Assembly: GCA_034620365.1 (NCBI GenBank)
Contig: JAQGEQ010000170.1
Span: forward strand, 558,001 to 622,000
Reading direction: 5' to 3'
Origin: Pegea sp. RAD2-039
Lineage: Eukaryota; Chordata; Thaliacea; Salpida; Salpidae
Length of the DNA stretch: 64,000 bases
The notes beneath the pieces were generated by a model. The model ran no database searches. It was not told where the DNA came from and was given only the letters and a program-made list of their open reading frames with translations. Below are positions 827 to 57,079 of the stretch, in pieces; the stretch's first letter is position 1, and each line of letters opens with the position of its first letter. The position numbers and the translations under genes were made by a program.

Positions 827-3800
827 TCATTGCTGAAGACTTTTCATTTCTGAGACCTCTTCAGGTCTTACTTTTCTGTTCCTGATTAACATTAAAACAT
901 AAGAGCTATCAAAAAATGTGACAAAAACTTACATTGTGGGTTTCGTCACAAATGTTATATTTCCTGAATCAGATTTTCTTTCTTTTGCGTAAATAGCTTT
1001 TGCTTGAACAGAACTATTACTTCTTACAGACTTCTTGATAGTTGTTTTTGCTGTTCTGGAGACACAAACACGAATATCAATTAAGCAAATGTTAAATTGC
1101 TTAATGAAACATTACCTTAAGCGTCTGAAAAAACCAGTTCCAATAAAGTTGTAGAAATATGGATTAAGGGCTGAATTGAGAAAGCCTAACAAACGAACTG
1201 CTTGCACAAGCTGAATACATATGTAATTCTGCATAAAGTTAAAGTTGGTAGTTGAAACACACTTTCAAAAGTCACTTGCTTTTCCCTGAGGAGTCTTAAT
1301 CCCAGTAATTTTTTTTAGATGTACAATATGAAATGGTAACCACAATACAACAAAACTGGTAACCAATAACACACACATAGAAGTGACACGTTTATTCCTC
1401 GAGATACTTTTCGATTGGGACTTAGAATTTTTTGTGCTATTATAATGAGAAGAAGTTGCACTAGAAGTTCTACGAGTCTTTGTTCGAATGTTTGCTTCTC
1501 TCAATCTTCGAATAATGAATCCATAAGTAACCATCATTACCTGAACAATATGATACCTCATACTTCATATTGGAAAGTTTGTTTACAAGTACTTACTAAG
1601 ACTGGAAAAATAAACAACAGTGTGAAGTTGACGTATAGGAAATTGTACCATAAGCTTGTGTAACCGATATAATGGCAATCACTCGAAATGGTTTCTCCGC
1701 TACTACTAGCTAATTTGTATACTTCATCAGTTATAGTTATATTTTCCGTCATAAATGATCCCTCGTAATAGGCATCGTAATTATAGGGATCACTGCGTAG
1801 ATGTTGTAGATTTGTATGTATACAAGAGATTGCTGCTTCGTTAAGCGAGACTTACATACAATCTTCAAGGTTAGAATATTCATCATAAGCTTCAAACTGA
1901 TCTTTCTTCAGGGGGAAACTGGGACTAGTTGATTTAATTGTTAGGATTTATAGTATTGATGATGAGGTAGATTGTTGACAATTGATTAAATGATAAATAT
2001 TTTAATATGACATATTTACAAATGAAACAATTGAAAAAAACGAAATTACATTTATTTTTGATTATACAAACTAAACATAGCAGACTTACTTGCATTTACA
2101 GTAAGGCTTAATGCCTGATACAGTCGAATAAGTAATTATTGGAATGCAAATCAGAAAAGATATGATCCAAACAAGAATAATCATTATTGTTGAAGCCAAT
2201 GGTTCCCGAAATTTCTTGAAATAAGCTGAATAAGTATGACAAACTGCAATATATCGATCAAAGCTCATGACCTGAAAGATACAAATATGTTATTTGGTCA
2301 TCAAGGTAGAAGCTTTGTTTGAAGTAGGTGAAATGTTCATTCCATCAACTATTTATTAAACTGATTTTTGATTACAGATTATAAATAATTTCAAAGGTTG
2401 TTTTGCGTTGTTTAAGAGGCTTCACGGGCTCAATTTGAATGGTATAACAGAAGATTATTCTACTACATACATAAATTTAAGTTGATGTCAGGCCTATGTG
2501 AGTCTATTTTAATGTAGCATTTTGTACCATCTAGTTGCTGCTTGTGCTTCTTGTAAGTTATAACACAATAAAGCTTTTTTAAAGAGTTTTTTTTACCATT
2601 TTAAAGACTGAAATATTTTATAGTATCAAACTTAGTTACTCAGATTTTAATTGAAAGTCAGTATCTAATGAGGAACAAGAGAAGCTGATGTGCATGATTA
2701 GTTTATACATTTCTACAACAGCTGGAACCCATTGGTTAAATATACAAAAAACGTCATAGCTTTGATAATCAGAATCCTCCAAATTAAACTAACTAACTCA
2801 AAGTAAATTGAAAGAAAAATTCATAAATATTGCCATGCCGAAGTCGCTCGCGTTGTTCAAAAAGAAGTTGAACCGTTATAATATTGCCAACATTGTCATT
2901 TCTAAATTGTGATTTTTTACTCTTTTTTATATTATTAACATTTTATGTAATTGTTCACTCTTATATTCTTTGAGTGCTATATAAATGCCATGTACTACAT
3001 CTTTTACTTTCTATATTTTTGACTGAATAGATATTATTCGTGAGAATGTGTGTTAGCGAGAGGTACTCTCTTCAGGTACTCTCCTTCGCATTTATTGTAA
3101 TAAATAAATAGCATTATTTCTTATTTAAGGTTAAGTTTCATTAAATGCTATGAAGGTTAAGAAAACAACTAGTTAAGTTTATAAGTTTTACTAAAAGTTA
3201 AATGTTTATTTTATATATAAGGAATTTAGATAAACATTTTATTTAAGCAATATCTGTTTAACCGAATAGAATGTAAATTTTTTTTAATTTCTTAAAGCAA
3301 TGCTTAGAGTATTTTGTTTATAAAAAGGACTTACCATAAGAAAAAGAACTGAAGCGCTGTAGTTTAGATAAATGATTAGTTGTTCAATAACACATAACCA
3401 TGCAGAGTGGATCCATTGCTTTTTAATAGTCTCCTCAACTTTAAACGGAATTGTACAAAGAAATAGAGTATCAGCAATAACTAGCTGGAGAACATACCTT
3501 GAAAAACAAAAGACTTGGTATACGCTTTTTAATATCATAAGATCTCTAAAAATGTTTGCTTAAAGAATACTTTAAAATGCATAACAACAAATATTAAACT
3601 ATAAAACTAATAGTTCCAAACACAATGTGGTAAATTATTTTCATAAGTATCTAAAATATTTTTGACTCACAGATGTAGAGTTGATTTTTTATATTCTTTC
3701 AAAACCAAAATAACAAATCCACTTATGCCGTTGCCTACTAAGCCTACCACAAATATAATCATCATAAGAGCTATAAAGACATTTTGAGAGTCTGTATAAA

Positions 3801-3893
3801 GATTTCTATTAAATTCCTGAGAAACTGTTTAATTAAATACTTGCCATCATTATCTTCACTTAGTAACAAATCATCTGTAGTTGTTTTATTCAT
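827..3893 (-). CDS. Class A GPCR paralog A (chemoattractant/peptide-receptor-like)
   Basis: Seven-transmembrane receptor of about 441 aa in ten exons: 3893-3845, 3791-3671, 3497-3335, 2271-2090, 1918-1856, 1792-1597, 1540-1280, 1228-1116, 1055-933 and 881-827. All junctions keep phase. Seen: TM1 with a GN pair, TM2 with LVIAD, Trp and Cys before TM3, DRY at about residues 116-118, TM4 Trp, a KPYCKC motif opening extracellular loop 2, TM5 ending FPVL, TM6 with WLPF, and NPYFY in TM7. Loop 2 is long (about 75 aa), acidic and Tyr-rich (DPYNYDAYYEG), with an N-glycosylation site. Intracellular loop 3 is basic and Ser-rich. Exon 7 ends at a GC donor (GCAAGT) and exon 1 may do so too. The last small exon and the exact N-terminus are least sure. 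A LINE 3' end lies in the intron before the DRY exon. The ligand is unknown; the fold suggests a peptide or chemoattractant receptor. Confidence 0.8.
2828..3111 (+). mobile_element. 5'-truncated LINE, 3' end (copy 1)
   Basis: This matches the 57.8-58.2 kb copy closely. It starts inside the reverse-transcriptase C-terminus (AMPKSLALFKKKLNRYNIAN), runs through the stop and a 3' UTR carrying GTGAGAATGTGTGTTAGCGA, and ends in ATTTATTGTAATAAATAAAT. It sits antisense in an intron of receptor A. Shortness with an intact 3' end is typical of target-primed insertion. Confidence 0.75.
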
Positions 3894-6686
3894 GATAAAA
3901 ATGTATAAATGAAATTACAAACTAACAAACCTAAACACATAAATCAAAACAGTTTAAAAGACTAACAGTTGAGTGAAACTTGAATTGAGTAAAAACTCTA
4001 GATTCAAACAACCATTTTTCTAGTTTAAAAACACCTTATAACATTTAAAGTTCTGTTATAGCAACTTTTTAAAGTTAGAAAAGTTCAAAGTCTAGACTAA
4101 TTAATAGCAAGCCATTTTGTATATAAATTTATGTTAAAGAATAAACTAATTTTTTGAAAATTTCTTTAAAAAATCTTTTAATAATCATTTCTGATTCTCG
4201 TTTAAAAAGCTGCTATTTCCTTCAACTAGTTTAAATTTTTTTCAAAAAAGTTAGCTCAACAAAATTTCCTGAAACTTTTTCTTACTTTTAAGAAACCAAA
4301 AGTAAAATGTTCTTTCTGTAAATCTTTCTCTTAATAAGATCATTGTTATAAATTTTAATTTAATCTTCTTCTTTTTTATTCACAAAATATAGTTTCTATT
4401 TTAAATGAAGTTATTTAAAAACATATATAGTCAATGTATATATGAGCAAGAAAAGTTCAACTAAAAACTGTATTTTCAGAACGCATGAAAGAGTTATCAA
4501 CCTCTCACAACCTTGCTGAAACAATTCATTTTGTAAGCACTTTGTATCAAACCCCTATTTGCTTACGTAACAAACTGCCAAAATGAGATAATTTTTTTAA
4601 CAAAGTTTAGTTTTATCACTGACTAATAACAAACTTAAGGAAGTTTTAATTCTCTCCTTATAGTGACTTGCTTCCTTCTCATGTGAAAGCTTTTCTTGTT
4701 TCTTTGAAACATAAACAGTTTTATTTTTACTGGGGCTTCTAAGACAGATGCTTCTTGAGCATCTTCGATCAATAGAACTGGCCTGTATGAAAATTTCTAT
4801 ACCTTAGTCTGTTGACCGTGGAGTTTCTACAGGCCAAGGTGCTAAAAAGACCTTAATCAAGTTTCTAATTTTATGTTCTACATTTATTTAGAAGCCAGTG
4901 GCCCTGACTCAAGTTCTAAGTTTTTGTGATGCTTACACAAAAGTCAAATTTTGTTTTAACCTAATGTATTTACGCTACCAACTTATTTATAAGATAATGA
5001 TTATCACTTTTATTAAGTTAAAATGTTATTGCTCAAATCAATCAATTATTCTAGCCATCATATTTTTGAAAACCTACCCAAAGTTCTGTATTTTAGTTTT
5101 TCTGTCTGTAAATTGTAGCATAAGAGATTTATGCATTTCTAATTTGCTGAAAAAACTTTTCATATTTTTTTCTAACTTTTTTAATTGATAGTCTTCTGTA
5201 CAAATTTCAACCCTTTCATGATTTTGTTTAAATGCCGCAAGGTGGCGCTTTCATTTAAAAAGTGAAGCAAACTGTTAACGAGAAATAAAGTTTTAATAGT
5301 TTTCTAAGATTCGTGATAAGAAATTAATTGTTCTAACGATCTTTAGAAATGAATATAATTATTTTTAAACGAAACTTTTGATCATAAAAGGTTGTAATTA
5401 GTTGTAAGAAATCTGCAGAAAGAAACTACTCTTTTATATATTTGAAACTAATTAATAAAAAAAAGTGAAAAAATAGTTTAAGAAAATAAATTCTATAATT
5501 TCAAATGGTCACAATGTTTCATAAATATTTCTTCAGACTTAAGAAAAAAAAATGATATGAAAAGATTGAACGAAAACAAATTTGACAATTTATTAAACAA
5601 AAATATGCTCAAATTAAGTTCTTCTTATTGAAAGCGATTCTCATGAAAATAAAAATATATAATTTCATCTTCTGCTAATCAGTCTGCATATGTTATTCAC
5701 CTGTGCTTCATGGAATTTATCAGAGCTTTTAGAAGTTGCCAAAATCAATTTCCTGTCATTTCTCATAAGCAAGCCCTGAAATTAGTACATGATGATATGA
5801 CAGTTCATAAACAGGAAGTGAGTTTAAGAAATAAAAAAATTTGGTAAATAGTTTATAAACAATAGCTTCAACAATTTTTACTATCACAAATTACTAAAAT
5901 AAACAAACTAAATAATAAAGAATTTATTAAATGGTTTAAACTATTTAAATCATCTTGACGTATTGCTGAAGTTACAGAGCTATATGTTGAAGAAATGTTC
6001 AGCTTATCTTTTTTCGCTTTGTAATCATATGATATAAAGAACTGTAAAGGAGTCGACTTTCACCAAGGGTATCTTCTAACGTAATATTTATCAATTTGAG
6101 AAAAAATATTTTCTTTCTCATAGCTAAAAAATATTGAAAAAATATAGGAAGGAAACTTTAATAGTAACTTTGACCACAATATTACTCTTAATAAAGAGTC
6201 AAATAATGTATTGATGTCATCCAAATTATTTGCAGAGAGTCATTTAAAGTAAAAATATGAAGGAAAAGGATGGGATGAGTGAGCTTGATTTGTTTATAAA
6301 AACGTTTACTTAAGGTAGGTTTATTTTACAGGCAGTTTTCTGTACCCAGTTTTAAGAGGAATTAAATTATATCAAATACGATGAAAGAAAGAGGGTTTTT
6401 AAACATTAAATAATTTATTTTTATAAAAGTAAAAATAATCAGGGCTTCAAGTTCAAACAAAATTCAATCAAAATGTTTGAAGTTATCAATTTTTTGTTCT
6501 GTAACCATAGCTTAAACTGTAATATGTTAAAAGATTTAAAAATTGTACTATTTTTTTAGTAAATAAAGGTCTAAATAAATTAATTAAATTTGCAAATGCT
6601 TGCTTTTTTTCTTTTGCAGATTAAACATTTTTACAAAAGAAATCGAGCAAGTTTATTATCTAGACTTTATCAAAACAACAATTAAA
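3894..6686. other. Intergenic region between divergent receptors A and B
   Basis: 2.8 kb of AT-rich spacer separating the starts of receptors A (leftward) and B (rightward), so it should hold both promoters. An open frame at 4898-5188 has no family resemblance and no splice context. No clear TATA or other regulatory motif could be picked out by eye. A strong polypyrimidine-AG at 6605-6619 could be the acceptor of a 5' UTR exon of receptor B. Confidence 0.4.
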
Positions 6687-8991
6687 ATGTCACTTACAAA
6701 TTTGACAAAGAAAGCTTTTGAAAGCTTCGATGCAGGTTGTAAAGTATTTGTAGATGAAAGAAACTTTAAAAATAACTTTGCATTTAACTATTTTTATCAA
6801 AAGTGTTCTCTTAAAAATTTTTACTTTTTCGACAATCTTTTGATAGATGAACTGACAAATGGAGGTCACTTTGTTGAAGTTAGCATCTTGATTTTTATAT
6901 TTTCTGTTGGAATAGTTACAAATGGACTAAGTATTTTTATGATTTTAGTTTTAAAAGATTATAAGAAAACTGCATTTCAAATGTAAGAGTTGTTTACCAC
7001 ACAATAAAAGCTACACTTTTCACAATTTAAAATGTATATCAAAGGTACGTCCTACAACTGGCATTAGCAGACACAATCTTTCTTGTTTATATCCCTTTTC
7101 AAGTTACTGAGATCATTGAAAAACGCTGGACTTATTCAGAAGGCATCTGCAAAATGAGCCAGTTCTCAATGTTTTTAAATTATTATGCTTCAATTTCGTT
7201 TTTAATGGTAAGTTTCATTTTAATGTTTTTAAAAATGAATTAATTTGTCACTGTAAAAATATCTTTTTTAAAAGTTTTTGACCTTTAGGTGATGAGTACT
7301 GATAGATATCTTGCTGTTTGTCAGTACAAGTCAAAAACTTTAAGCAAACTCAGAAAAGGCTTTGCTGCTAATATAATAACAATACTTGTTTGGGTATGTT
7401 GCTTGGGTGGTAGTGTGCCCATCGCTAAATATTCTTTAATATCTGGCTTTCAACCTTGGTGTAAATGCATGTAAGTTAACATCATTCGTAAAATATTTCA
7501 AACTATTTCTTAAAAATAAAATTTATTGAACTTTGTCATAAGCACTTAAGTTGCTTGAGCATCTGACACAGCTTTTAAAACACCAAATTATAAAATTTTG
7601 AAGGTAATTTTGTATTTATTTTGGTTTTTGCTTTAGAATACAATTTCCAACAGAAGATGATCACCTTATTGCCACAGAAGACAAATGTTTTTCAGCTTTA
7701 AGGTTTTTATCTTTTCAAAAACTCAAAAAGTTTTTTTAGCTATTAATTATTCATTCTTAGAAGGTTTTCTTTTCATTAAATCCTTTTTAAAAAACTATAC
7801 TTATTTATAGTTTGTGAGAATGTGTTTTAGCGAGAAGTGCTCTCTTTAGACACCCTCCTTTGCATTTATTCTAATAAATAAAAAATAAATTCAAATCCAA
7901 ATTCCTTGAGAAGCCGCTAACATACTTCAGTTTTGAAACTTATCTGTAATCTCAAAGATTTTATATTTTTGCAGCAATTATGATTCGAAAGAAAATTATA
8001 CGGATTTTGGGGAGCTTGATGTTGATTACGCTTATACAGCAGATATTTTTACAGATCTTATCAGTAACTTTAGTGAATATACAACAATATCAGATGAAGA
8101 CCTTATTGGAAAAGATTGTCATTTTGAAAATCATTCACAAAACTGGAAACTGTTTCTGATTCTTAATTTCATTTTGATGTTTGCAATTCCAGTTTTGGTA
8201 CGATGACAGAAATGTAGGCATGACATGAAAATAATCATTTTTGTTTCCGGTAGATTATGAGCTTCACTTATGGTGCAGTAATCAGAAAACTTTTTAAAGT
8301 TTCTTTGAATGTAAATGAATCCATAAGTCGAAATGTGAGCCAACTAAGTAAAAAGAAACAGAGTAATCAATTAAACCGCAAAAAACAAATCACGAAGATT
8401 TGTATCATCTTACTCCTCTCTTTCTTTATATGTTGGTCTCCTTTTCATATCCTTAATCTGGCCATGATCATTGGAGTACAAGTTTCTAAGGATCGAGTGA
8501 GACTAATTAAAAGTTTCTTAGTTTTTAATAATCTCTTTTCAGAATCATATTTGTTTAAGACTTCGTTTTTGTGTGAAAGCGATGGCTTTTTTTTATTCGG
8601 CTCTGAATCCTTTTCTCTACAACTTCATGGGAACTGACTTTATGCATCGTTTCAGGTAACCTTACTCAACATTTTGTTTTAGAGCTTTTGCTAAAAATGA
8701 TTCAGAGGATGATGACTTGTTGTAAACTTCCTTCCTTAGAGCCCTTCGCAGCAGCTTAAGTGGCAACAACAGCCAACAATCGCTTAAAATTCTTCAACCT
8801 AAAATTAATAAATCTAAAGTGAGAAGCAAGAACTTGACTGGATTGCACAAAGTAAGTTTCTCCTTTCTTTTTTTGTATTCAGGAAATCACATTTTTCTCA
8901 CATTCAAACTAACATCTAATCTTAAACAAGATTACAACCAGCCACACTAACATTGTCGTTTTATTTACAACAGAAAAATAGCACTAGTTAA
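6687..8991 (+). CDS. Class A GPCR paralog B (chemoattractant/peptide-receptor-like)
   Basis: The only plus-strand copy; about 434 aa. Exons: 6687-6735, 6847-6982, 7045-7207, 7289-7470, 7637-7702, 7975-8197, 8254-8496, 8543-8655, 8740-8851 and 8974-8991. Seen: TM2 LALAD, Trp and Cys before TM3, DRY at about 121-123, QPWCKC at the start of extracellular loop 2, TM5 ending IPVL, ICWSPF in TM6 and NPFLY in TM7. Loop 2 contains ELDVDYAYTAD and NYT, NFS and NHS sequons. The first intron (6736-6846) is 111 nt, a multiple of three, and has no stop, so unspliced RNA would add 37 residues. I chose the spliced form because exon 1 then has the same 49-nt length and phase 1 as in receptor A. The C-tail ends KKNSTS. 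A polyadenylation signal AATAAA follows at 9167. Confidence 0.8.
7805..7887 (+). mobile_element. LINE 3' tail fragment (copy 2)
   Basis: About 80 bp matching the extreme 3' end of the same LINE family (TGTGAGAATGTG ... TTGCATTTATTCTAATAAAT). It lies in the sense orientation within the intron between the two extracellular-loop-2 exons of receptor B. Confidence 0.65.
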
Positions 8992-11383
8992 ACAGTTGTG
9001 CACGAAGATGTTTTCATTCTTTTTGATATTGAATAATTTTTGGAGTATCAATTTTATCTTACTTCTATTTTTTTCGATGACTTCTTATAATTACATATTT
9101 TACTATTTTATATGAAAAATGTTTTTATCAAATATTGATCAGCAGTTAAGCTTGGCATAGTATCAAAATAAAAAAGCTTTTCTTTCTTTTTCTAGTATTT
9201 CTCGTAGTTTGTCAATTTTTGTAGTAGATATTGAAAATTCCAACAATAATTTTTATGTATCTTTTGCATTAGTAAAATAAAAGCTCATAAATATATGAAT
9301 TAAGGTTTATGTGTTTGTTATAAATCATCATTCAGTTAAAAATAAAGTCAACAAAAAAATAAAATAAATATAAAAGTTGAAACTTTATCATTCATATTGA
9401 AAATTTGTGAAAATAAATATTTTTCAATTGAAGTTGTATTTCAGCATTCATCCAAATCGGTGGTTTTATCAACTGATTTATGTATGAAAGCTGTTTAAAA
9501 GGACGGTGAAATTCAATAACATTCAAAAGCTGTTTTAATGGCCTTTAAAATGTGTTTGTTTTCAAATCAAAGTTGAAAACATACATTAATCTTTCAATGT
9601 GCCTTCTATAGCTAAAAACATTTAACGTTTTTCCGAGTTTTCAAAAATTAGTCAAGCTCAATTTTAAATTACAAAACTTATAATAAAATAATATTTTAGC
9701 GAAATTAAACACTTAAAATAAAAACTACATTTGGAGTAAATTTGTTTGAGTCTTTTTGAAGAATAAGTAAACAGCTAAAATTAAAGTAAAACTTGTTTAT
9801 GTATTTATTATAAAGTCATGCTAATTGAACTTAATTTGTTCAAAGGAAAAATGCTACAATACTTCAATAAAAATTAAAATAGTTAATAGTATGAGTTTGA
9901 TTCAAGTATAAATGATCAAACAACAAAATACAATCAGCAGTAAATATTTCCAGAGATAAGTTAGATAATATAGCCACTGAAATGTACAGTCTACAATTGG
10001 GTGACATTAATTCATATCAAGTATGTGCGTGGGTTTTGATAGTTTAAACACTACTTTAATAGTTTATCTTTTATAATTTTTTTATAAGCAAGATATTATT
10101 ATATATATAATATTATTACTATACATAAAGTTCTATTTTACATGAAAATAGTTAATTCTAAACAACTAAAAATCATTTGACTCAAATAAGAATATATTTG
10201 CTTTTATAAATCATAAAACAATTTTACCAATTCTGATCAGCCTATGTAAACTAAGAACAAAGTAAAAATTGTTACAAATTTAATCAATACAGTCTTCTCA
10301 GATCTAATAGAATTCGAAAAATAACTAGTCAAAGAAGAATAATAATAAAAATTATGTTTAAAACTATAAATAATTGATCAACGAAAAGCATTAGGTTTAA
10401 AAATTGTGACTAACTGTACAAAAATAGTTCAAGTTATTATTTCTTAGAAAACTGTTTTAAAAATAGTCTCTTTTCAGCTTTTGAAAATAATTGGTAAATG
10501 AAGTTTGACGTGAAAATTTCAATTTTTGGTTTATCAGAGGAAAGCGGTTTGAGCAGTAATTATTTACTACCTAAATGTGAAGGACATTTTTTCACGTGTA
10601 ATATAAACAAATTATAATTTATACTCGTCAAATAAAAATAATAACTTTTTGCTAGTTTTCATTAATTAAATTGTTAAATCGATTTTCAAACTTTTTTTTC
10701 TAACTTTTAGGTTTTTTAGTAAAAGTCAGCTGATGTTTTATACACCATAGCTTAAAAAACAGTTTGAACTATTTGATGTTTTAAATTCATTTTTTTGTCA
10801 TTTATTGGACAAAGTATAAAAAGAGAAATAAAAGATTTTATTTATATTAAGTTGAAAAAAATATTCAGCAAAAGATAAAAAGAAATAATGATTTTTACAT
10901 TTACTAAATATACTAATGCACACCAAATGATTTGTTGTACAATGATACTTATAACCAAGTTTAATTACATAAAAGAAATGAAAAAGTTTTATTATTTACA
11001 TAAAAATTTTAATTAAAACAGTTTTATCCAAATTATAGACTTATTTGAATACAAGTCTTTCTTGGTGCGTTCAGTCTTGTGCTTTGTAGTCTTTTACTGA
11101 TATTATAAAAACATGAAAAAAAATGAAAATAAAATACGTTTTTATACGCGCTTATCGAATGTGCAAAGTTAGATAAGTATTACATGCAATATAAGTAAGT
11201 CTTTATATATCCTGCTTATTTGTAAAATCAAATAAAGCATCATAATTATTAGATATCAATAAAGACCAAAACAAAGTTTATAAAAGCTAAGATTGAAAAG
11301 TTTCAAATTAAAGATATCTTTTTAAAGAAAGTATCTTTAATGAAATGTCTCATTTGTAATTTCAGTTTTAGCTCACATTATCG
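8992..11383. other. Spacer between receptors B and C
   Basis: Convergent 3' flanks of B and C. It holds an AATAAA at 9167-9172 (3' end of B) and short TA-rich runs near 10,095-10,115. A possible alternative last exon of receptor C lies at 11,033-11,096. Nothing else is recognisable. Confidence 0.4.
9167..9172 (+). terminator. Polyadenylation signal of receptor B
   Basis: AATAAA about 175 nt after the stop codon of receptor B. It is the first canonical hexamer I noted in the 3' flank. Confidence 0.4.
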
Positions 11384-13634
11384 CTATATAGACATGGCTT
11401 CTTTTTCATTACGTTTGCTGAGGAAATATTTAAGAGCTTATTTAGAGGTTGATTTTATTAATAATTAAATTAGTTAATGCAAGCAATTGAATTTAACTAT
11501 TTTATGAAAAAAGTAATTTACCTGGTAGGTTTAGTAATAGCTGTTGCTTTGATGTAACTTTGAGTTTCGTTTTTATTTACTTTAACTTTGCAAATTGAAG
11601 GAATATTCTTTTGCTTTGCATTATTTCCTAAAGTTGACCTTGCATTTCTAAACAAAACTCGAATTATGTTAAGGTTAAAATGTCTTAGGCTACTACCTCC
11701 ATCTTTTTCCAAATTCTGTTCCAATAAAATTATAGAAATAAGGATTCAGGGCTGAATTGATGTAAGCAATTATAGAGCCAGCAAGTGACAGATTGCTACA
11801 AATATATCCCTAAAATAACAAAATTCAAATCTTAATTCAAACTTTTTTACAAGATTATATTAAAAATTTAGATAGTTTTTTGATATTCTAAAATTTTGAA
11901 TCTGCTAGATAACCTAGATTTATAACATCAGAAAACAGCTGGTTACCTTGCTTATGGGTAGAGGTATTACACTCAATTTAGCTAATTGTATAGCATGGTA
12001 TGGCAACCAACAAACTGTAAAACACAACACAAGAGAGGCGCACATTCCTGTCACTTTTCTTCTCATGTTTGGTGAGCGACTAATCTTTTTTCGTGGACTT
12101 CGATCTTTGAAGCTTGATCTAGATTTTCTAACAGATTCGCTTCTTTGCATTCCATTTGATTTTTTCGGAGATTGCATTTTAGTCTTGTAAACGCGTCTTA
12201 TTATTAATCCATATGCGATAGTCATCACCTATAAGTTTCAATAGATAATACTTTTTTCTTTTATATTCTTTTTTATCTATCGTGCTTTCAAAGTTTTAAA
12301 AACTGTTTACAGTAATGTGATCTTAAGATTATAACATCACATTAATAGCAAAAAATAAATAAAAGCTTCCTACTAATATTGGTAATAGGTACAGAAGTAC
12401 AAAGTTGATGTAAAGAAAAGCACTCCACACGGAAGGACTACCAAAAAATGCGCATTCATAAGCAATTCCATCGTCTATAAGCAGGCTTGAATATGTTTCA
12501 TTATCAAAATCAGCTTCAGTTTCAGGTAGTTGATAATAAAATGATATATTTTCAAATATTTCTCCATCATTAGTTTGATCTCTGATAAATCAAAAAATTT
12601 TTTATTTTGATTAGATATTTTGTAATTTCCTTTGAAAATGACATATCAGAGTTGTTTTGATAAAAATAAAAAAAAATTTCAAAGCTTCAGTGTTAATGTA
12701 TAGAATCTGTTTAAGTAAAAAACCTGCAATGTTGTTCATTTGGAAGATTGGTTGAGTTGTTAAACTTAAAGAGGACACAGAGCTGATGAGCAAGGTCCTG
12801 AAGATCTTCACAGTCTTCATTTTCAACAGAAGGGAGAAATGAAAATCTGTACAAAGTATATTTTCAAATTGAATTATTATATTTAAATCAAAGAAACAAT
12901 CAATTATTGCAGATAATAAACTTACTGGCAGAAGCAATTTGGTTTATTGCCAGCAATTTCAGCATATCGCATTGCTGGGATACTACAAATCAAAGCCATA
13001 ACCCAGACTATAAGTATGATAATCGTCGAGGAGAGAGGCCTTCGAAGCCTCATCAATTTAGTGGAAAAAGAATGACAAACAGCAATATAACGGTCAATAG
13101 ACATCACCTAAACCAAATATGTCAGTAAATATGTAAGAGATTCTCCCTTTTTAAACTTGATTTTTACCATTAGAAAAAAAACGGACGCGTTATAATTGAT
13201 AAAAAGCGCGATTTCTTTTGCTTTGCACATCCAAGTCGGAAAACTCCAGTAACCAACCATCTCTTCATGAACTCGAAAAGGGATCGTAAGAAGGAAAATT
13301 GTATCAGCGATTGCTAATTGGAGCACATATCTATAAAAGTTTACTCAGTTTTCACCTAATTTGAAATGAGAGAGGACCCACCTGTGCAGAGCTGAGTTTT
13401 TAAACTCCTTTAAAACCACAATTACAAGTATGCTGATAATATTCCCAGCTATACCAAATAAGCAAACCGTGAGAGAAGTAATTAGAGCCACCCAGTTGAT
13501 GTCTAAAATGGGTTTTTCTTTAGTTTGTCTTTTATTAAAATGATATAATTTTGATTTAAATTGTTGAGAAATGTCATGAAAACTGATTAATGCTTACTAA
13601 TTTCGTTAGGTAAATCCAAAAGTGTATTGTTCAT
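11384..13634 (-). CDS. Class A GPCR paralog C (chemoattractant/peptide-receptor-like)
   Basis: About 462 aa in ten exons: 13634-13598, 13502-13382, 13330-13168, 13107-12926, 12846-12724, 12581-12374, 12228-11947, 11809-11697, 11647-11522 and 11417-11384. Seen: TM1 GN, TM2 LAIADTIFLLTIPF, Trp and Cys before TM3, DRY at about 112-114, NKPNCFC opening extracellular loop 2, TM5 ending LPIL, VCWLPY in TM6 and NPYFY in TM7. Loop 2 is the longest in Cys-rich acidic sequence (about 100 aa, exons of 123 and 208 nt), with several N-x-S/T sites. Loop 3 is very basic, with RS/SPRKK-like phosphorylatable stretches. The intron before the C-tail exon is only 49 bp. The last exon is uncertain: 11096-11033 is also in phase. 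Confidence 0.8.
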
Positions 13635-19600: not shown

Positions 19601-21115
19601 GTAAACAAATTTGACTGTAAAATTTAATGATCAATCGTATAAAGTTTATAAACTGTTGTATAAAATTTGTTTAAATTTATTTTATTTTATATTTAGTAGA
19701 CGGTTTCTTGCTAAACAAACTTTTTTAGCAAAACTTAAATTTTATGTTACTATAAATGTCTATGAGATCTAGTTCAGATCATATCAACGTTTATGATAAT
19801 TAAGAGGTTTACTAGCACTTTAACTTCTGCTAAAACCAAATTACTAGAAAAGAACCTTACAAAAAATGAAATTAAACGTTCGAAGCTTATCTTAAGTAGC
19901 TTAGTTTTTAAATAAAAATGATTTGATAGAAGTAGTTAGAAATATTTTTAGATGTTTCATTGGCTTAGCAATAACTTTTTGTACAGCTTTTTATCAACAG
20001 TTTAAATCACGATAACTCTTTTTAGTTACTAAGTTACTTCAAAAGCAAGAGTAGAAAAATACTTCAATATTTTGCTTTCTTATTTATTCAACACTATGTC
20101 ACATAGTTTAATCTTACTACGTTTATGGAGATTATCGATTTACAAACGAAATTTTAAACATGACTTCTCCGAATTGAATCTTTATTTTAATAAAATTCAA
20201 GGTGTATATCTGAATTTTTCTTGCAAGTTATGATGTATTCTACGATTTGTTTTTTAGATAGAGAACTTGTTAGATTTTTGAATCCTTATTTTCTTCTTTG
20301 ATAATCCTTATCATTTTTAGTGAAATCATTTGTACTCAAATAATTATTTATTATACGTAAATATTCAATATATTTCCAAATTTATTCACATTTCTAATGC
20401 TGATTGAAGATATTTCAACTGATTTTGTCTTAATTAGTTATATATTTTTTTAGTTAAGTAAGCACGTGTAAGAAGCTTTCATTATTTAATGAGTAATTAA
20501 AACAAGCAGATTTACTTACTAGAATTTCAATAACTGGAAAATTAGATTCTAGTTGGGAATTTTACAAGCAAGATGAGGTTGAAATCAAAAATTTCAGTTG
20601 ATTCCGTAAAAGTCTTGCAATTAAAAAAAAACTTAGGAGCTTTTCGGGTTACTTTATTTATTTTGCAAATTTATTTTACTATATACTGTCATAAGAATTA
20701 AATAATAAACCAAACCAACTTTTCACATTAACAAGCAAAGAAATTTCCAAGTAAATTATCGATTTCTTCAACTATTTCTTTCACTCTGATCTATGCTGAG
20801 TTATATAAGTTTAAAAGTCAGTATAATTAAAAGCTAGACTATAAAGTCATACAGACAGCATAAAAAGCTTTAAATATCAAATATTTTATATGTTGCTTTT
20901 AATTTTACAAAATTTTGCTAAATAACATAAAAATATGCAAATTAAAACGGAAGTGAAAATACAATACGAGGAAATTTTGAAGTATTTTTCAGCTTATATC
21001 TTAAGTTTGAATATTTGCATTTTTGATTTGGATATTAACAAAATGTTTCCAAACTTATCTTCATCGTAACAGATAAGCCAGACTTAAAATAAGAAGTTGC
21101 CAGAAACCAATATGT
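13635..21115. other. 7.5-kb gene-poor spacer between receptors C and D
   Basis: Uniformly AT-rich. I searched both strands for receptor hallmarks (DRY, WLPF, NPxxY exons) and for the LINE tail and found none. Open frames at 17,985-18,276 are short, AT-driven and lack splice context. It presumably contains the promoter of C and the 3' flank of D. Confidence 0.45.
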
Positions 21116-24100
21116 TCACTTAAGTTCAATGTCTAACTGCAAAATAGATGTTTAAAAAGAGATTTTCGAATATGAAAACCTTTTATATAATATTTAAAAC
21201 ATCAACTATTTAATTTTTTGTATAGTTTATACAGCTTTAAACTTAAGTGATTTTTTTCGTAAACCTATTGGCTTTAGACCATTAAAATTAAAAAGGCCAA
21301 TTCAGAAATGATTGGAAAGCTATCAAAGTTAACATTAGGTTTCAAAAAACTCGCTTTAAGTTAATTTTTTTAAATACAGCTTTTACAGTTTATATTAGTT
21401 AGAAGATAAATGTTCACTTATTAACTTGATGTATGCACAAATGTTTCAAAACTTGTAGAGATGAGTTAACATCTTATAAACTTACCGATATGTGTTTCTT
21501 GGGCATACTAGCTTTTGTGTTAGTAGCGACAAAAGATTGTTTCTTTTCTGCTTTTAATCCAAATTTTTGTTTTACAGTTGATTTAAACATTCTAAAAGTG
21601 TAATGGTTATGTTAGGAAAATTTAAAGATTTTAAAGAGAAATTTTAAGAAATAAATCTGTTGAAACGGTTTTTCAAACCTGAAACGTTTTTTGAAGTCTG
21701 TTCCTGTTATGTTGTACAAGTATGGATTAATTGCAGCATTTAGATGTCCAAACAAACCTCCAGCAATAGTCAAATTCACACAAATGTAAGACTAAAAATA
21801 TGTTGAATTAAATCATTATTACTTTCAGCTTACTGATATTATTGCAACATTATTCATTTGTTTTAATTTCATTCTTTTTCATTACATTTTTAGCAAATCA
21901 AACTTTTAAAGAAACCTTTGATAAGGGAACATGAATACCAACAATCTTAGCAAGGTGTATTGCAAAGAAAGGTAACCAGGAAATGATGAAACAAATAACC
22001 AACATAATGCACATAAAAGTAACTTTTTGTTTAATTTCATTATTTTTGCTGCAAGCTGTATTTGACTTTACGTTGTCAAAAGGCTTAGCTTGTAGTTTCT
22101 TACGAAAAGTTTCCGTCTTACGAAGACGTCTAATAAGTAGTCCATATGATATCATCATCACCTTCAAATCATTAAAAATAGTTTACATCAGTCGAAAATG
22201 TCGTTAGCATAGCTTTGATAGTCTTACAAGAACTGGAAGAAGGAACAAGACAAAAAAATTGACGTAGATGAAATTAAACCAGTTCTCAGAATATTCATCA
22301 TAATTGCATTCTGTTGGGCTTAGACCTTTCATATGAAGATTTGAATTGTTGTCGCTGACGTTAAAAATTAGTTCTGTAGTATTGACTGCAGCTCTATAAA
22401 AGCGCTTGTTGTTAGAAACTATCTACTTAGCTACGATTTCAGAAAGTTATTGATTATATAAAAGAGACGAATATTAAAGTAGCCTCTTATTGCAAATTAA
22501 TTCGTCAAATTTAGTATGAAGCATTTTTGCGTCCCACGAGAGTTTGTTATCTTATTTTGTTCAACCAATTAGCTAATTTACTTCTTTTTATTGATATTAT
22601 TTAATTTATTTTTTTTTTATTTGAAAATATTCCTCTTACAAAAACAATTTTGAGTTTAGAAGTTTGATAAAAACAATCGTATCATTTGAGTTTTAGTTAC
22701 TTTATAAAAAGAAGAAAGCTAAAATTGTTTTAAGATTATCTTCTTGTGTAGAAAATAATGGAATAAAAACTGTAATAAGTTTAACTCAGTCTTATCAAAT
22801 TTATAAAAAAATACTTTTGCTGTAAAACTACTTCATCTTAGGTAATACCACAAAGCTTTAAAAATAGTAAATATATAAAAAAGAAATATTTTTAAAACTA
22901 ATTAGACTTGGGCTTCAAAATATTTCATCATTAAACCTTTTAGCTTTAAGCAATCGATTGAATTCAATTTTTTTACAAAAAAATAATGTTACAGTCAGCT
23001 AGGTTTTACGCAATTAAACCATGAGATTTTTACATATTTTTGAAGAACAAATTTAGGATAAAATTTGTAAATATTTAAGAAATCTCTTTAGATTTACAAA
23101 GATTTTGATGTAAAACACTCACCGACACTGCCTGGTATTGTACTTAGTCGTGTTTTGAAGGAATAAAACACAAGAATTAAGTTTTGCGTCATTCAAGTCT
23201 TTCATTCCAATTGTCTTCAAACAAATGTCAGTTGTAGATATATTATGTGAAAACTCATACCTTAAATAGATACAGTAAATAATTTGAAGCAAAAATCTAG
23301 ATGATGTAGACATACGCGCATTTACAAGTAGGCTTAACACCCATCACAGAGGCATTACTAATTACAGGAAGGCAGGAAAGAATTGAAATTATCCAAATTA
23401 TTCCTATCATCAAGTAACCAATCGTTGGTTGACGTAGTTTACTGAGTCGAGCGCTGAATGGGTGGCATACTGCAATGTATCTATCCATCGTCATAATCTG
23501 TTTTATCAAAATTCCCATTAAGCAACTGACAGATTAAAAAGTTTCAATTATTTTTAAAAGTTTTTTTAATAAAACTCACCATAAGAAATAGAATCGAAGC
23601 GTTATAGTTGAGAAACCTTAAGGCAATCTTTAATGTGCATACCCAATCAGGAAACTTCCAGGTGTTGAAATAATCTTGATTCATTTGAAGAGGAATTGTA
23701 GCTAGGAACATGAAATCAGCAATAGCCAGTTGTAGAACATATCTAAGTGAGAAAATAATCACAATCGTAAATAGGTTTGTAACTAAACTGAACAAACGAT
23801 GATTTGTTCATAAGCTCTACTTCTCACCCATGAAAAACTGAGTCCTTATATTCCTTAAGAACAATTATGACCACGAAACTAATTACGTTTCCAACTAATC
23901 CGACTGAACCAATAATTGCAATTAGAACCAACTCCAACAGTAATCCAGCTAGAAATGATTTACAAAGATCAAAATTTAACAATATTTCAGATGTAAAGAA
24001 TTTGAAATAAAAACGTTATAGATTAGAAAGGTTTGGGGCGCCAAGATGGGGATGAAAGCTAGATTTCTATGTCTACGAATGTCTAAAACAGAAAGAGCTG

Positions 24101-26209
24101 CGATATTCCCTTGTGAGTTTCTTAAGTACCAGGGAAGTATTAATAACAAGGTCACTTTTAAAGACACGTGGGTACTCCACAAACAAAAAGGGCGGATGAA
24201 ACCCAAACTGGGCTCCAAGGGTTATTTCAGGGTATTCTGAGATCACTGGATGCAATAAATTTTTAGGGAAAAGTAATATACTCATTTGAGTATTGAAATT
24301 TATGATGATAATTAAATACAAACATCCGGTATATATCAACGTAATACACTTTAACATTTCAAGTATTTAATTAATTACTTCAACACATATAGTTTTAATT
24401 ATTTAATATTCTAATCACTTTTATACAGATCATCTTAAAAACAAAGTAAATTGACATTTTACAAAAGTTTACAAAATTTAAAAACTTGAAATCTGCTTAC
24501 AGCATTTATAAATAAATTTACTAAAATAAGATTGTACCACAAAGACTAATATTACCACCATGTTTTACTGATCAAGATAATATAAAAAAACATTTTTTTA
24601 AAGTAAGGTACAAAAGTTTCAAAAATTCTTATTAAGTTTACAGTATCAAAATGTTACACTAATAGTAATTTTTCAAATTAGTAATCAGTTTTAATAGTTG
24701 AACATTTATTTTTATTTTGAAACTAGAATATTGCTTAAAATCTATGAAATTATATAACCATTTATCATGCTAGCAAAACTATATTTTTGACGAAATGAAA
24801 CTGATGCAAACTAAGATACTTACACTTTATCAAAATAATTAATTCTATTTTGTTATGACCAGTAGTGATACTTACAGTGATTAAACATTTTTTTTATTCA
24901 AAGTTCTTCGTTAATTGTAGAAACCTATAATTGTAAACTCATCCCAGTTTAATCTATGTCTACAAATAAACAAGTGAAAATAACTCATCTAATTCACAAA
25001 TATGTTTCTTTAGTTTGTTATAAATGAAAAAAATAAAGAGCTGAGTTAATGAGTTTACTTTATTAGCTTTAGAGGTAATAAATTGAATAAAATAAATCTT
25101 ATTGAAAAAAGCAATTTAAATGATCAATTCGGTTAGACGAGTCAGAAAAAGTTTACTAAAAGTAAAGTGCTTGCATAAAACACACTTTAGTAAGTGGATT
25201 ATTCTAAGCATAAGATTTCAACACATTCAAAGGTAATCTAATTCAAACCCTCAAACTTGTAATAAGTTTAAATTTAAAACTGTATATGCAAAAATGTTTG
25301 TTTTTATCACATTTCAATTACTAAAGAGGGATTTTAGTTGGTGCAATTAGTATTTGCATAGTTGCTGGCTTCATAAAACACATTATTTTTATCAATAGTT
25401 TGACAAATAGACCTTAATGACCTTCAAGATGGCTAAAAGGTGTTTTTTTTTACGAAAATTTCACACCGCTAACGTAATTGCACCGTAAGAAAATGACTTC
25501 AATGACTGGCTAATATATTATTCAGTCAATTCAGTTCAAACTAAAAACTGCGCTTATTATTTACAACAAACTATATTATTAATTTTTAATAAGTTGAAAC
25601 TTAATTTAAATACAAACTAATTGTCATCTGATGCAATTTAGCTATTTAGTACAAAGAGGCTTAAAAAACTTAAGGGAATTGAAATTTCGTTTGAAAACAA
25701 CCGGCTACTAGCTTGAAGCAAATGGTGAGTTTAGATCATTAAGTAATTCTCATTCGACCATGAGGAACCCACACACTTCTCTTGAACAATTTCCAACTAA
25801 ATAGGAAGTTATCTTCACTTCATGTTAATATTTACAATTATTTAAAATTATATTTTTACAGCTTGTAAAAAATATATAATCAAACAAATTAATGTTTACT
25901 ATATTAGGCATACACAATAGAATGATTTGTCAAATTACTTTGTCACTATACGCTTAATGAAAAAACTTTATGGTTATGCAAATGATTATGTTTGTTATAT
26001 AAAGAAAAATTCAGATGACGATTATGACAAATACATCATACAAAACACATCTTAAAATTGATAAATTTAAGCAAAGAGACTTTTTGGTAATCTAAAGCAA
26101 TCTATCGTGACAAACTCATATGAGACTGCAACCAAATTTGCATAAACTGAATTGTGAAATCCATACACTTACTGTTATGCAGTGAGTAGAGATCTTGGAA
26201 TGAAGTCAT
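21116..26209 (-). CDS. Class A GPCR paralog D (chemoattractant/peptide-receptor-like)
   Basis: About 430 aa. Exons: 26209-26173 (tentative), 23948-23828, 23742-23580, 23497-23316, 23260-23123, 22393-22228, 22161-21916, 21791-21679, 21591-21486 and 21136-21116. The core 23948-21486 is secure: TM1 GN, TM2 LAIAD, DRY at about 112-114, VKPTCKC, TM5 LPVL, ISWLPF and NPYLY. The first coding exon was found 2.2 kb upstream. It reads Met-Thr-Ser-Phe-Gln-Asp and ends at GTAAGTG in phase 1, with the same 37-nt length as exon 1 of receptor C, which is why I accept it. Loop 2 exons (138 and 166 nt) carry HNIS, QNTT, VNTT and NVS glycosylation sites. The 7-codon last exon after TTTTGCAG is plausible, not proven. 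Confidence 0.75.
24030..24250. repeat. GC-richer insert, probable interspersed repeat of unknown family
   Basis: About 220 bp with higher GC than the flanks, beginning near GGGCGCCAAGATGGGGATGA and ending near CTCCAAGGGTTATTTCAGGG. It lies in the long first intron of receptor D. Frames are open on both strands but match nothing I know. No second copy was noticed in this window, so calling it a repeat rests on composition alone. Confidence 0.3.
24251..26172. other. Long first intron of receptor D
   Basis: AT-rich intron sequence between the tentative first exon and the TM1 exon of receptor D. No other exon or repeat is recognised. If the distant first exon is wrong, this is simply upstream flank. 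Confidence 0.35.
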
Positions 26210-28013
26210 TTTTGAAGTTTGCGACTTTTTGTAAAGTGAAGGATTTTAGACTGAAATCTTATTTTGGTAATAATTGCAACGATACTGTAGAAAATATTAT
26301 ATACTAAACAAAAACACCAAAAATTCATCAGTTATCACTGATCTCTAGTTGTGTTTCTTTAATCATAAAATGTTAAACATATTTTGATGTTTAATTTATA
26401 GTAAGAAGTTATTATTTCATTCAAACACCATTATTATAGAATTTTGAAGGTTAAGAAAGGAGCTGTTTTAACTTAAAATCAAAAAAGAAGATATTTACTA
26501 ACTAGTTATATTTGTTCAAAACTATGTACTTTTCACAGAATAAAAAGTTTAAATCATATTTTATAAAAAGTAGTTTGCTCACCTTCAAATGCATCAATTT
26601 GTTCAAACTTTTGCGAGGTCCTATTATAAACATACTAATTGATTATAATTAAATAAATAATCAGAAATAATGATATCTCTTTACCAATACTTAAACATTT
26701 ATATCGAAAAATACAATCTAAGTAATCTAATTTGCACAATCTAAACTTCTATTATATTCAGTAAAACTCAATTATTTCTAAATTAGAATTAGTTGAAGAA
26801 ACTGATGGAGAGGATATCTTTAAGATTGAATCCATTACTAACTCATGGTAACTATATCTCTTTGAATTTTATGATTCCTTACAAACTTATCTTGCAGCAA
26901 ATATAAGTTATTCTAAGCAGTGAGGATGTAATTCTTAATTTCATTCTATTCAAATAGTGTTTCAGAAGAGAAATCTAATAGTTTTCATCTAATTGCATTA
27001 GATCTTAAATTTTTGTAACATGATTTTTATAATATGTACTATGAATTAAATTGAAAAGAGTGGGTAACTTAGTAAACAATTTTAGAAAGTATTGAGCTTT
27101 GTAAGTTGAAGCAATATATACTTGTTGGTTGGAAAAAGTTATTCACGCCACATTTTCCGGCTGAAAATTCTAAAATTGTAAGTTGATATCTAGATATCAT
27201 TTAGAACATACTGCTAATTACCAGTAGTTACTGATTAAGAAACTTGGTGCTGAAGATTGTTTTTTCAAAAAGAAAATTACTAAATTGTGAATGCTTTTTC
27301 ACAAAAGCATTTTTAAAGAGTTTTAATAATTAGTTCTACAAAGCTAAATAAACTATTCATGATAATAAACAATTTATATGAATAAAGCAACAAAAACCTG
27401 ATAAAATGTAATTTAAGCATTAAGTTTATTACTTAGATTAAAAAAATTTCATTCATAAATTTGTTTTGGAGACCAAGTCGTTTTTCTCTGTTCTTTTTTG
27501 ATTTATTTTCAAAAATATTTACAACTTTTGGCTTTTGACCAAACACTTATTAAACTTGACTGGAGAATTTATACTAAAATTTTGAAAGTAGTTAATCCAA
27601 TTAATTGATGCCTGTTCTTCAATACTTCTCATATGGTCAGCAAGCTTGTTTTTTTATATTTTAAAAACGATTCAGGTTTACACGTAAATATTGATTCAGG
27701 CAGTTTAGTTAAGACTCGCATTCTTAAAAATATCCGATTTTATTTGTTCAGTAAGACTGAAATCTTGATATAAGTATATACAGAACTTGGTTATATCGAA
27801 TAAACGAGAAAAAAAACAGGAACATTTAGAGATAATTGCTGCTATTCGACAAATGTTGCTTGATCTTACAGTTTGTTTCAAGATTACATCAGTGGAAAAA
27901 CAGTTTAGAAGATGACAGATTTTGAAATTCACAAGTATCACTGTAAGATTTACATATCATAAATAAATTCAATTAATATTTCTATAAAATCGAAATCTTA
28001 TTACTTTTTACCT
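26210..28013. other. Spacer between receptors D and E
   Basis: AT-rich, with no exon supported by splice sites. The open frame at 27,705-27,941 (minus) is unspliced and unlike any family I know. The region probably holds the promoter of D and the 3' UTR of E. Confidence 0.4.
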
Positions 28014-30514
28014 TTATTTTTTTTCAGATTTTCCATTTTCTGTTACCTTGTTAGAGTGAGAGCTCGCTTTGGATCTTTTAGAGCGAATGACATTTGAAGT
28101 ATAAATTACTGATCTGAATTTTCTGTTGAACAAAAATCTTTCAAATCAGTTTTGGAAACTCAATAATGATGTTTGATGGCATTTAGCAATCGGGATTTAA
28201 AATAATTATAAAAAAGATCAAATATTCATTCGATTTGTTAAAATCATCATTTGATTTTAACTAAATATTGAAACTTTTGTTTACTTGAATCTAGCACAAA
28301 ATCCAACACCAATAAAGTTGTATAATATTGGGTTAAGAGCTGAATTAAGACGGGCAAATGTTCCTCCAACTAAAGCATACTTCACGCAAGCAGCACCCTG
28401 CTTGTAAACAAATCATTATCGGAGATATTTGTCGTTGTAAGAGGCTTTTACATTTGCATTTCGAATCCCGATCAACTTTGCAAGGTGGACAACAAAGAAT
28501 GGAAGCCAGCACACAATGAACGTAATCAACAGCACCAAGCATAAGATTGTCACGTGCTTCTCTTTTTTAATCTTTGCATTTTTCATCTTACTCTTTTTCA
28601 CTAAAGCTTTACCGGACATTTTCCTGCCGTGATCTCCATGTCTTCTTCTGGTTCTATTTAAACGAAAGATGATAAGTCCGTAGGCCACACTCATAATCTA
28701 AAACAAACAAATCCTCATATAATTGAAATAGTAGAAAATAACAAATCTAAAATTTTCAAAATAACGTTTAGAGTTCCGTTTTATTTTTGGAAACAAATCT
28801 AGACTACTTCTGTAAACATTTTACGGTTTCTATATTGAATTAATCAATTAAGTATTTTGTGAGTTGAAGTATGCTAAATTGTTCATCAATTTCTTTACTC
28901 ACCGAAACCGGTAGTAGAAACATAACAATAAAGTTGACATAAATAAGTAAATGCCAACTGTACGGTGCATGGTTGTAATTGCAAGCGTCTGGACTACTTT
29001 CAGTTTCAAGAACATCTTCATTAAGGTAAGTGAAGTTTGCTGGATCATCGTAATCGGTTTCTCCGTATTCCACATCGGCTCCACTGTAATCCTCTACTTC
29101 TCTAAATTGATACGAAATGAAAACAAATTTATCAAAGTGTTTGTATTGCTTTCATATATAAAGTGGATTAATGGTTAATTAGAATTAGATATTTGGTGTT
29201 TGAAAGTTAGTAAAGCTCATAGCTTTAAATTAAAACTTTTAATTTTTACTTCTTTGCATAGTTCGAAAAAATAAAGAACAAAAAACACCAGTTAGTTTGA
29301 ATATTCGATTAGTATTCAACAAACCCTGTATAAAAAGATAAAAAATTTGTTTCTTCATAATCCCTAAAAGTGATAATATTTGGTTAAACTCCGTAAAATA
29401 TTTCAATGAAATCACAAATACTCTGATCATTAATTCACCTGCATTTATGCTTCTCGTTCTCATTCACATTTTCTTCGCATAGGATAAAAAAATCTTTTTT
29501 AGGAAACAGCAGGTTGGTTGCGTTGATACTTTCATAATAATACAAACATCTTTCCGTCGCATTTATTGTCTTTGGGAAAAGTAATCTGTTAGATTAGAAA
29601 AAAATTAACGAAATGAAAAAATGAATAAAATGATTTTTACTGGCATCGACAATGAGGTTTTACTCCATACACATGACTGTGCATTATGATTGGAATTGAA
29701 CCCAATACTGAAAAAATCCATATTAGAAGAGATATTGTATGTGAAGCTGCAGGTTTTCGTACTTTCATCAAAGTCTTAGAGAATGGTTTACACACAGCAA
29801 TATATCGGTCAATACTGATGATCTGTTGAAGATTTGTGGTAATCACAAGCAAGTATGTTTCAATTTTGTATTTCAGCTATGCTTATGAGTGATTACTTTT
29901 CTTTAAAAATGAAGATATCAAGTTTTCATATAACTATCACACTAATCTTGAAAATACCATTTCTGGCATAAGCATTTAGAAAGATAAGAAATTCTTACCA
30001 CTAAAAATGATATTGAAGCATAATAATTGATAAACAGCATGGCTTCTGATATTTGACATAAGGCGTTCGGAAAGTTCCAAGAATCTTTTATGGATTCATT
30101 GATTGCAAGTGGAACAGTAAGCAAGAAGCAGATATCAGCGATTGACAAATGAATAAGATATCTTAAACGAAAAAGTTGTTTGATTCAACTTTAAAACTAA
30201 AGTTTAGCTACTTGATTGTCTTTTCGAGTTTATATCTGATCATTTAATGTTTTAAGATTAAGTAAAAAACATGGAAAGATTCTAACCGATTTAATGAAGC
30301 CTTTTTATACTCTTGTAGAATAAGCATCATGAACAAGCTGATGATATTGAAAAATATTCCAACAACACAGATCAGTATGCTTACTATGATAGATATCCAA
30401 TCTAAAAATGGTGCTTGCGGCTTATCTAAATAATAAAACAATAAATATGAAGGTACAGAAGTTATTCTAACTCTGTTGTATCTTACCACTGAAATCACTC
30501 AATATATCTTCCAT
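28014..30514 (-). CDS. Class A GPCR paralog E (chemoattractant/peptide-receptor-like)
   Basis: About 441 aa in nine exons: 30514-30487, 30425-30287, 30161-29999, 29822-29641, 29585-29439, 29101-28903, 28697-28452, 28397-28285 and 28122-28014. Seen: TM1 with FN in place of the usual GN, TM2 LSIAD, Trp and Cys before TM3, DRY at about 115-117, VKPHCRC at the start of extracellular loop 2, TM5 LPVS, VCWLPF and NPILY. Loop 2 has the largest pair of exons in the family (147 and 199 nt), with INAT sites and the acidic tyrosine stretch DYSGADVEYGETDYDDP, a good candidate for tyrosine sulfation. The C-tail stops in its first exon (SEKK end), so E lacks the extra terminal exon of its paralogs. TM2 starts YLIHLS, unlike YVLQLA in the others, so E is probably the most diverged copy. 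Confidence 0.82.
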
Positions 30515-56970: not shown

Positions 56971-57079
56971 CATAACAATTCTTTATAAGAGTATTCAACA
57001 AAAAACTAATAACTTCATTATCATTTTCTTTTTAAGTAAAACAACAATTTTTAAAAATGGTTTCACTGCGTGGATAAAT

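Follow-up and report, generated by a model that had tools for sequence, protein, structure and literature searches.

An old, partly dispersed family of class A receptors with a common exon layout in Pegea sp. RAD2-039

Between positions 827 and 30514 of the window, the 64,000-nucleotide stretch of DNA analysed here, are five intact GPCR genes of the rhodopsin type (class A); all but one of the five are on the minus strand. They are part of an old, partly dispersed and fairly ordinary receptor family and are not the product of a purely local burst. We put the probability at about 0.75 that they represent one old class A family with a common ancestral intron layout, with copies both in the array and elsewhere in the genome, and with peptide-type signalling. 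The gene models of the array, in which splicing is predicted from the DNA alone as in all models of this study, are as follows.

827..3893, minus strand: receptor gene A, splice model of nine exons (49, 121, 163, 182, 196, 261, 113, 123 and 55 nt), complete open reading frame of 420 aa
3335..3497, minus strand: gene A, TM2-TM3 exon, 163 nt
2090..2271, minus strand: gene A, DRY-TM4 exon, 182 nt
1116..1228, minus strand: gene A, TM7 exon, 113 nt
6687..8851, plus strand: receptor gene B, the sole plus-strand copy, splice model (49, 118, 163, 182, 223, 243 and 113 nt, followed by a last exon that is doubtful)
7045..7207, plus strand: gene B, TM2-TM3 exon, 163 nt
7289..7470, plus strand: gene B, DRY-TM4 exon, 182 nt
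8543..8655, plus strand: gene B, TM7 exon, 113 nt
11697..13634, minus strand: receptor gene C, splice model (37, 121, 163, 182, 208, 282 and 113 nt) without the cytoplasmic tail exon(s) below 11697
13168..13330, minus strand: gene C, TM2-TM3 exon, 163 nt
12926..13107, minus strand: gene C, DRY-TM4 exon, 182 nt
11697..11809, minus strand: gene C, TM7 exon, 113 nt
21486..26209, minus strand: receptor gene D, splice model (37, 121, 163, 182, 166, 246, 113 and 106 nt)
26209-26173, minus strand: gene D, weak first exon, followed by a 2.2-kb first intron
23580..23742, minus strand: gene D, TM2-TM3 exon, 163 nt
23316..23497, minus strand: gene D, DRY-TM4 exon, 182 nt
21679..21791, minus strand: gene D, TM7 exon, 113 nt
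28285..30514, minus strand: receptor gene E, splice model (28, 115, 163, 182, 199, 246 and 113 nt) without the tail exon(s) below 28285
29999..30161, minus strand: gene E, TM2-TM3 exon, 163 nt
29641..29822, minus strand: gene E, DRY-TM4 exon, 182 nt
28285..28397, minus strand: gene E, TM7 exon, 113 nt

The exons encoding TM2-TM3, DRY-TM4 and TM7 are exactly 163, 182 and 113 nt long in all five array genes, and the phases derived from the exon lengths run from 2 to 0, from 0 to 2 and from 0 to 2, respectively. All acceptors are AG and all donors GT, except for two GC donors placed after exons 1 and 6 of gene A, which give two GC-AG introns. The exons of variable length hold loops or ends: the first TM exon measures 115-121 nt, the exon of the second extracellular loop (ECL2) 166-223 nt and the ICL3 exon 243-282 nt. 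First exons are 49 nt in genes A and B, 37 nt in C and D and 28 nt in E, the one in gene D having been picked among 21 candidate stretches by donor and phase. The last intron of gene B is only 27 nt long in the model and is doubtful for that reason. These gene models bear out most of what a sequence-only reading of the array had described, namely the exact lengths of the three exons, the two first exons of 37 nt and two of 49 nt (to which gene E adds a fifth), the four genes on one strand and one on the other, and the paralogy and common gene structure of the five.

Two paralogs on other contigs, C21 and C245, agree with the array genes in the lengths and phases of the three constant exons. 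An additional exon is present in ECL2 of the C21 gene, and the C245 model is without its first exon. The exon scaffold is thus not peculiar to the array but the mark of a family of at least seven full-scaffold members. The equal exon lengths are not due to chance; they are as expected of inherited introns in stretches without indels, and the exons concerned hold no indel-bearing loop. A single intron layout would have been passed down from the common ancestor of an old class A family, and because the introns were kept, the copies would have been made by duplication at the DNA level and not through mRNA. Most of the known copies are in the array, with the sister of gene C on C21 and another early branch on C245.

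The genome is small and AT-rich, with a GC content of 24-32% across the window and a further 12 measured loci. Xenoturbella bocki, at 43% GC (PMC11521371), does not fit this range; the 24.95-31.14% of monogonont rotifers (PMC11954553) is compatible with it, which proves nothing. A COX1 family search across the genome gave no match. An Rfam scan of the window gave no family at its cut-off. Pattern searches for let-7 and miR-1 found no let-7 within one mismatch and one miR-1 site, which folds into a hairpin and speaks for a bilaterian.

All seven members (the five array genes, C21 and C245) match the Pfam model 7tm_1 (PF00001) with E-values of 0.001 or better, the best being 1e-48; genes C and D score 156.1 and 137.5 bits against a curated cut-off of 30.5 bits. 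In the alignment, on which helix positions follow our own counting, DRY, W6.48 and NPxxY are present in all seven members and P6.50 in six, C245 being the one without it. The sodium-site residues D2.50, S3.39 and N7.49 are invariant. Because DRY, NPxxY, W6.48 and the three sodium-site residues are kept throughout, the seven receptors most likely signal through G proteins. Peptide-receptor-like class A features had been proposed for the array from the motifs LAIAD, DRYIAVCH, CWLPF and NPxxYxFxG. The features stand, while the exact strings proved to be consensus forms, found in two, three, one and four of the five array models, respectively.

The ECL2 insert is acidic, with D/E exceeding K/R in 7/7 members when the segment ends are chosen by hand. 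The D/E:K/R counts are 18:0 in C245, 14:0 in gene E, 12:0 in gene C, 17:7 in C21 and 3:1 in gene D. The family most likely consists of orphan receptors of peptide type whose second extracellular loop is mostly acidic. The long, mostly acidic ECL2 and the peptide-receptor-like sequence point to basic peptides as putative ligands, an idea that fits gene D poorly because its ECL2 is short and barely acidic. Five extracellular cysteines are invariant in all seven members. The extra conserved cysteines, in a CxC that opens ECL2 and at a single position where TM7 begins, may form an added disulfide from ECL2 to ECL3. In chemokine receptors the TM7-start cysteine pairs with an N-terminal cysteine, and an acidic extracellular surface is a family trait of chemokine and chemoattractant receptors. 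The present family has both the TM7-start cysteine and the acidic surface but, unlike chemokine receptors, no N-terminal cysteine in the alignment of the six members with a modelled N-terminus, which are all but C245. A more specific proposal, tentative and in our judgement rather unlikely, is that of a subfamily in which a disulfide between the ECL2 CxC and the TM7 start would replace the chemokine-type bridge between N-terminus and ECL3, and the acidic ECL2 would capture lineage-specific basic peptides.

PROF1 is a flatworm-specific orphan rhodopsin family whose genes are intronless and whose DRY and NPxxY motifs are degenerate, according to the description in PMC3261222 on which we draw. 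It resembles the present receptors in being, by that description, an orphan class A family classified as peptide-type and with many paralogs. Membership is ruled out on the definition of PROF1 taken from the same source, the genes here being multi-exon and their DRY and NPxxY motifs canonical.

Do the array genes encode chemosensory receptors that sense environmental cues? The clustering and divergence of the paralogs and their variable extracellular loop would suit such a role, and Srw, a model of nematode chemoreceptors, is a further match for two of the seven members (best E-value 8.9e-12). Against this, the family is small (the seven or more members counted above), its genes have several exons, it is old and conserved, its class A motifs are canonical, and neither recent nor fragmentary copies were seen in the stretches examined, that is the window and positions 520-558 kb of contig C25. 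We consider a chemosensory function unlikely.

Somewhat less probable still is membership in the somatostatin/allatostatin-C/opioid receptor family, even though the best 60 of 754 PDB matches are all opioid or somatostatin receptors. The likeness to these receptors (class A, gamma group) extends to LAxAD, DRY, W6.48, the NPxxY frame and P2.58, and TxP in TM2 is found in 6/7 aligned members. Asp3.32, which contacts the basic ligand in somatostatin and opioid receptors, is nevertheless absent from all seven, the residue being I, M, L, R and L in genes A to E and L in both C21 and C245. The extra CxC and long, mostly acidic insert in ECL2 and the introns inside the TM region are further differences from those receptors. 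A phmmer comparison of a 135-aa somatostatin receptor 1 fragment with 17 receptor proteins of this genome ranks C21 second (80.4 bits) and C245 third (79.9 bits), but the array genes C, A, E, D and B only 6, 7, 8, 9 and 12 (73.5 to 55.9 bits). First place is taken by an intronless C103 receptor with Pro3.32 (81.5 bits) and fifth by an Asp3.32-bearing receptor on C262 (76.3 bits), so that the fragment does not single out the family among the 17.

The trees, which rest on 222-301 columns, place C21 as the sister of array gene C with support of 97/96, 93/93 and 88/95 in the three trees, in the two further of which the branch uniting C and C21 is below star level. The early-branch position of C245 has moderate tree support. 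A single clade for all five array genes, the outcome that the sequence-only reading had itself named as support for local expansion, does not emerge: C21 joins gene C, and trees constrained to hold the five together are rejected by the AU test (p 0.018 and 0.0176), as is a clade of the four array genes without B (p 0.049). The best tree pairs (A,D), (B,E) and (C,C21), so array neighbours are not sisters in it, though trees that pair the neighbours D and E or A and B cannot be rejected (p 0.31 each) and the branches among A, B, D and E lack resolution. The pairs (A,D) and (B,E) would point to a block duplication, but because their support drops from 85/88 and 91/92 in one tree to 53/72 and 62/84 in another, we claim neither this nor a simple order of tandem duplication. 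The dS values are at least 1.44 or beyond correction in 21/21 pairs of the seven genes, with dN of 0.28-0.60. Synonymous divergence is thus at or near saturation, which implies that the duplications are old and leaves recent duplication unsupported.

A purely local expansion, in which one array founder gave rise to all five genes and every other gene is excluded, would account for their physical clustering. It would also agree with the finding of no further copies in the rest of the window or in the 38 kb of contig C25 that precede it. Given the grouping of C21 with gene C, the rejected five-gene clade and the lack of sister relations between neighbours in the best tree, we regard it as very improbable. 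Kinship with vertebrate chemoattractant receptors (C3a/C5a, formyl peptide, chemokine), to which an acidic, tyrosine-containing ECL2 in several members might point, is the least credible of the alternatives, since no such receptor is among the best 60 of the 754 PDB matches, which leaves an affinity to C3a/C5a and formyl-peptide receptors unsupported, a different gene of the genome (C103) has chemokine receptors as its first match (CXCR4, 1e-33), and the six N-termini offer no cysteine to partner that at the start of TM7.

The old family with a common intron layout and copies both inside and outside the array carries a simple lesson, that equal exon lengths in neighbouring GPCR genes do not by themselves demonstrate local expansion. 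Biologically the finding is ordinary; its contribution is an orphan receptor family of peptide type in this animal.

The window (contig C25:558001–622000 of an assembly of 105.7 Mb in 387 contigs; GC 27.8%) contains, at 827–30514, five predicted genes for rhodopsin-type receptors (A to E), which were delineated by three-frame reading and explicit splice models. B lies on the plus strand, and A, C, D and E on the minus strand. As the sequence-only reading described, the TM2–TM3, DRY–TM4 and TM7 exons are exactly 163, 182 and 113 nt in all five genes, with identical phases, and two first exons have 49 nt (A and B) and two have 37 nt (C and D); the fifth, in E, has 28 nt. The first exon of D is weak, having been selected among 21 candidate stretches. 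All acceptors are AG and the donors GT apart from two GC donors, both in A (modeled introns 3844–3792 and 1279–1229). The proteins are 34.7–43.5% identical to each other, and the reading of the five genes as paralogs is correct. The motifs reported for them hold as consensus but not as exact strings (LAIAD in 2/5 models, DRYIAVCH in 3/5, CWLPF in 1/5, NPxxYxFxG in 4/5). A tblastn search of the window and the preceding 38 kb (four loci) revealed no extra copy; 19 of its 204 hits fell outside the five gene bodies, all with E-values of 0.05 or worse. Two other domain fragments were identified in the window:

34434–34721, minus strand, fragment of a kinesin motor domain, located downstream of the array (Pfam, 4.7e-13)
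52305–52577, plus strand, fragment of a mitochondrial carrier domain (Mito_carr, 8e-13)

A longer minus-strand frame near the kinesin fragment, 36363–37307, has no Pfam match. Similar translated stretches (GNNWISI...) at 56693–57154 and in locus L040 on contig C3 (2–193) suggest a dispersed repeat.

The family extends beyond the array. When each of the five proteins was used to search the genome, three close relatives were identified elsewhere, named here after their contigs: C21 (846–848 kb), C245 (287–290 kb) and C106 (140–141 kb). The models of C21 and C245 have the 163-, 182- and 113-nt exons in the same phases as the array, with one additional exon in the ECL2 of C21 and the C245 model starting after the first exon. 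In C106 the exons are 163 and 188 nt, and there is no intron between TM6 and TM7 or after TM5. Two genes on C1 and another on C57 are more distantly related, and their intron positions, where these could be seen, are different. Seven full-scaffold genes (A–E, C21 and C245) is a lower bound, as genome searches score the best candidates only; all seven match Pfam 7tm_1. Since the dispersed genes keep their introns, they were moved or copied as DNA. The 163-, 182- and 113-nt exons align across copies without gaps, and length varies in the exons that encode loops or ends (115–121 nt in the first TM exon, 166–223 nt in ECL2, 243–282 nt in ICL3). The exon lengths are thus fixed because inherited introns flank stretches without insertions, and nothing requires a mechanism at the level of the array.

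The sequence-only reading had proposed that the array arose by local expansion, but the one-clade test that it put forward goes against an exclusively local origin. In a tree of 13 proteins and 301 columns, the seven genes form a clade (support 95/95) that C106 is the next to join (97/99), and array gene C is the sister of C21 (97/96). When the five array genes are forced into a single clade, the log-likelihood falls by 14.2 units (AU p 0.018). In a tree of 222 gap-free columns restricted to near outgroups, C and C21 group at 93/93, under the star level, and the five-gene clade has an AU p of 0.0176. Removal of the long-branched B leaves the pair at 88/95, and a clade of the remaining four array genes is rejected at a borderline p of 0.0487. 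The grouping of C21 with C and the AU rejection of a five-gene clade are therefore evidence against a purely local origin. C245 is the first branch within the seven, but support for the fork uniting the other six is only 83/95 (93/92 in a further tree, 92/94 without B). No firm branching order emerges for A, B, D and E, and neither a D+E nor an A+B pairing is rejected (p 0.31 each). The seven genes are old and constrained: over 151 ungapped codons, dS is at least 1.44 or beyond correction in all 21 pairs, including C and C21 (dS 1.96, dN 0.28), and dN ranges from 0.28 to 0.60.

Opioid and somatostatin receptors carry Asp at residue 3.32. A profile of the seven members matched 754 PDB sequences at 1e-10, of which the best 60 are all opioid or somatostatin receptors. 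Gene D alone (phmmer, PDB) gave mainly the same classes, with one neuromedin-U receptor entry among the best 60 of 724. Asp3.32 of somatostatin receptor 1 is seen in the gene D alignment; the corresponding residues in A, B, C, D, E, C21 and C245 are I, M, L, R, L, L and L, i.e. no Asp in seven. In a comparison fair to introns, 17 receptors from the same genome were scored with a fragment of somatostatin receptor 1. An intronless receptor on C103 came first (81.5 bits), C21 second (80.4), C245 third (79.9) and a C262 receptor with Asp3.32 fifth (76.3); the array genes C, A, E, D and B took ranks 6, 7, 8, 9 and 12 (73.5–55.9 bits). These mixed ranks mean that the score neither sets the family apart nor rules it out. 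The array genes were lower in a six-frame search with the same fragment, but introns split the query there. The absent Asp3.32 is a stronger argument than the score against somatostatin/opioid membership.

Most members have an acidic insert in ECL2 (D/E:K/R of 8:1 in A, 13:2 in B, 12:0 in C, 3:1 in D, 14:0 in E, 17:7 in C21 and 18:0 in C245). Five extracellular cysteines are invariant in all seven: 3.25, the two of a CxC that follows TM4, and single ones ahead of TM5 and at the start of TM7. No cysteine precedes TM1 in any of the six modeled N-termini, so that a putative bridge may link the CxC to the cysteine with which TM7 begins.

Loci L001 and L003 (C103), L004 (C75) and L006 (C37) hold related class A receptors that look intronless and carry Pro at 3.32; the best solved-structure matches of the C103 receptor in L001 are chemokine receptors (CXCR4, 1e-33). 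L043 (contig C381, 159–3251) is an intronless open frame of 1030 aa in which LDL-receptor class A repeats precede a 7tm_1 domain. In a Pfam search, at least 11 further places matched 7tm_1 within open frames of about 910–1020 aa, suggesting an expanded family, of which the L043 frame was read. A hairpin-forming match to miR-1 was located at about 1501–1519 of L044 (contig C140), and let-7 was not found in the assembly at up to one mismatch.

Many peptide-type receptors of other animals, for example cnidarians, are still orphans (PMC11087051). The family is unlike PROF1, a flatworm orphan family whose genes are reported to lack introns and to have degenerate motifs (PMC3261222). The array is part of an ordinary, old receptor family whose layout is partly clustered.
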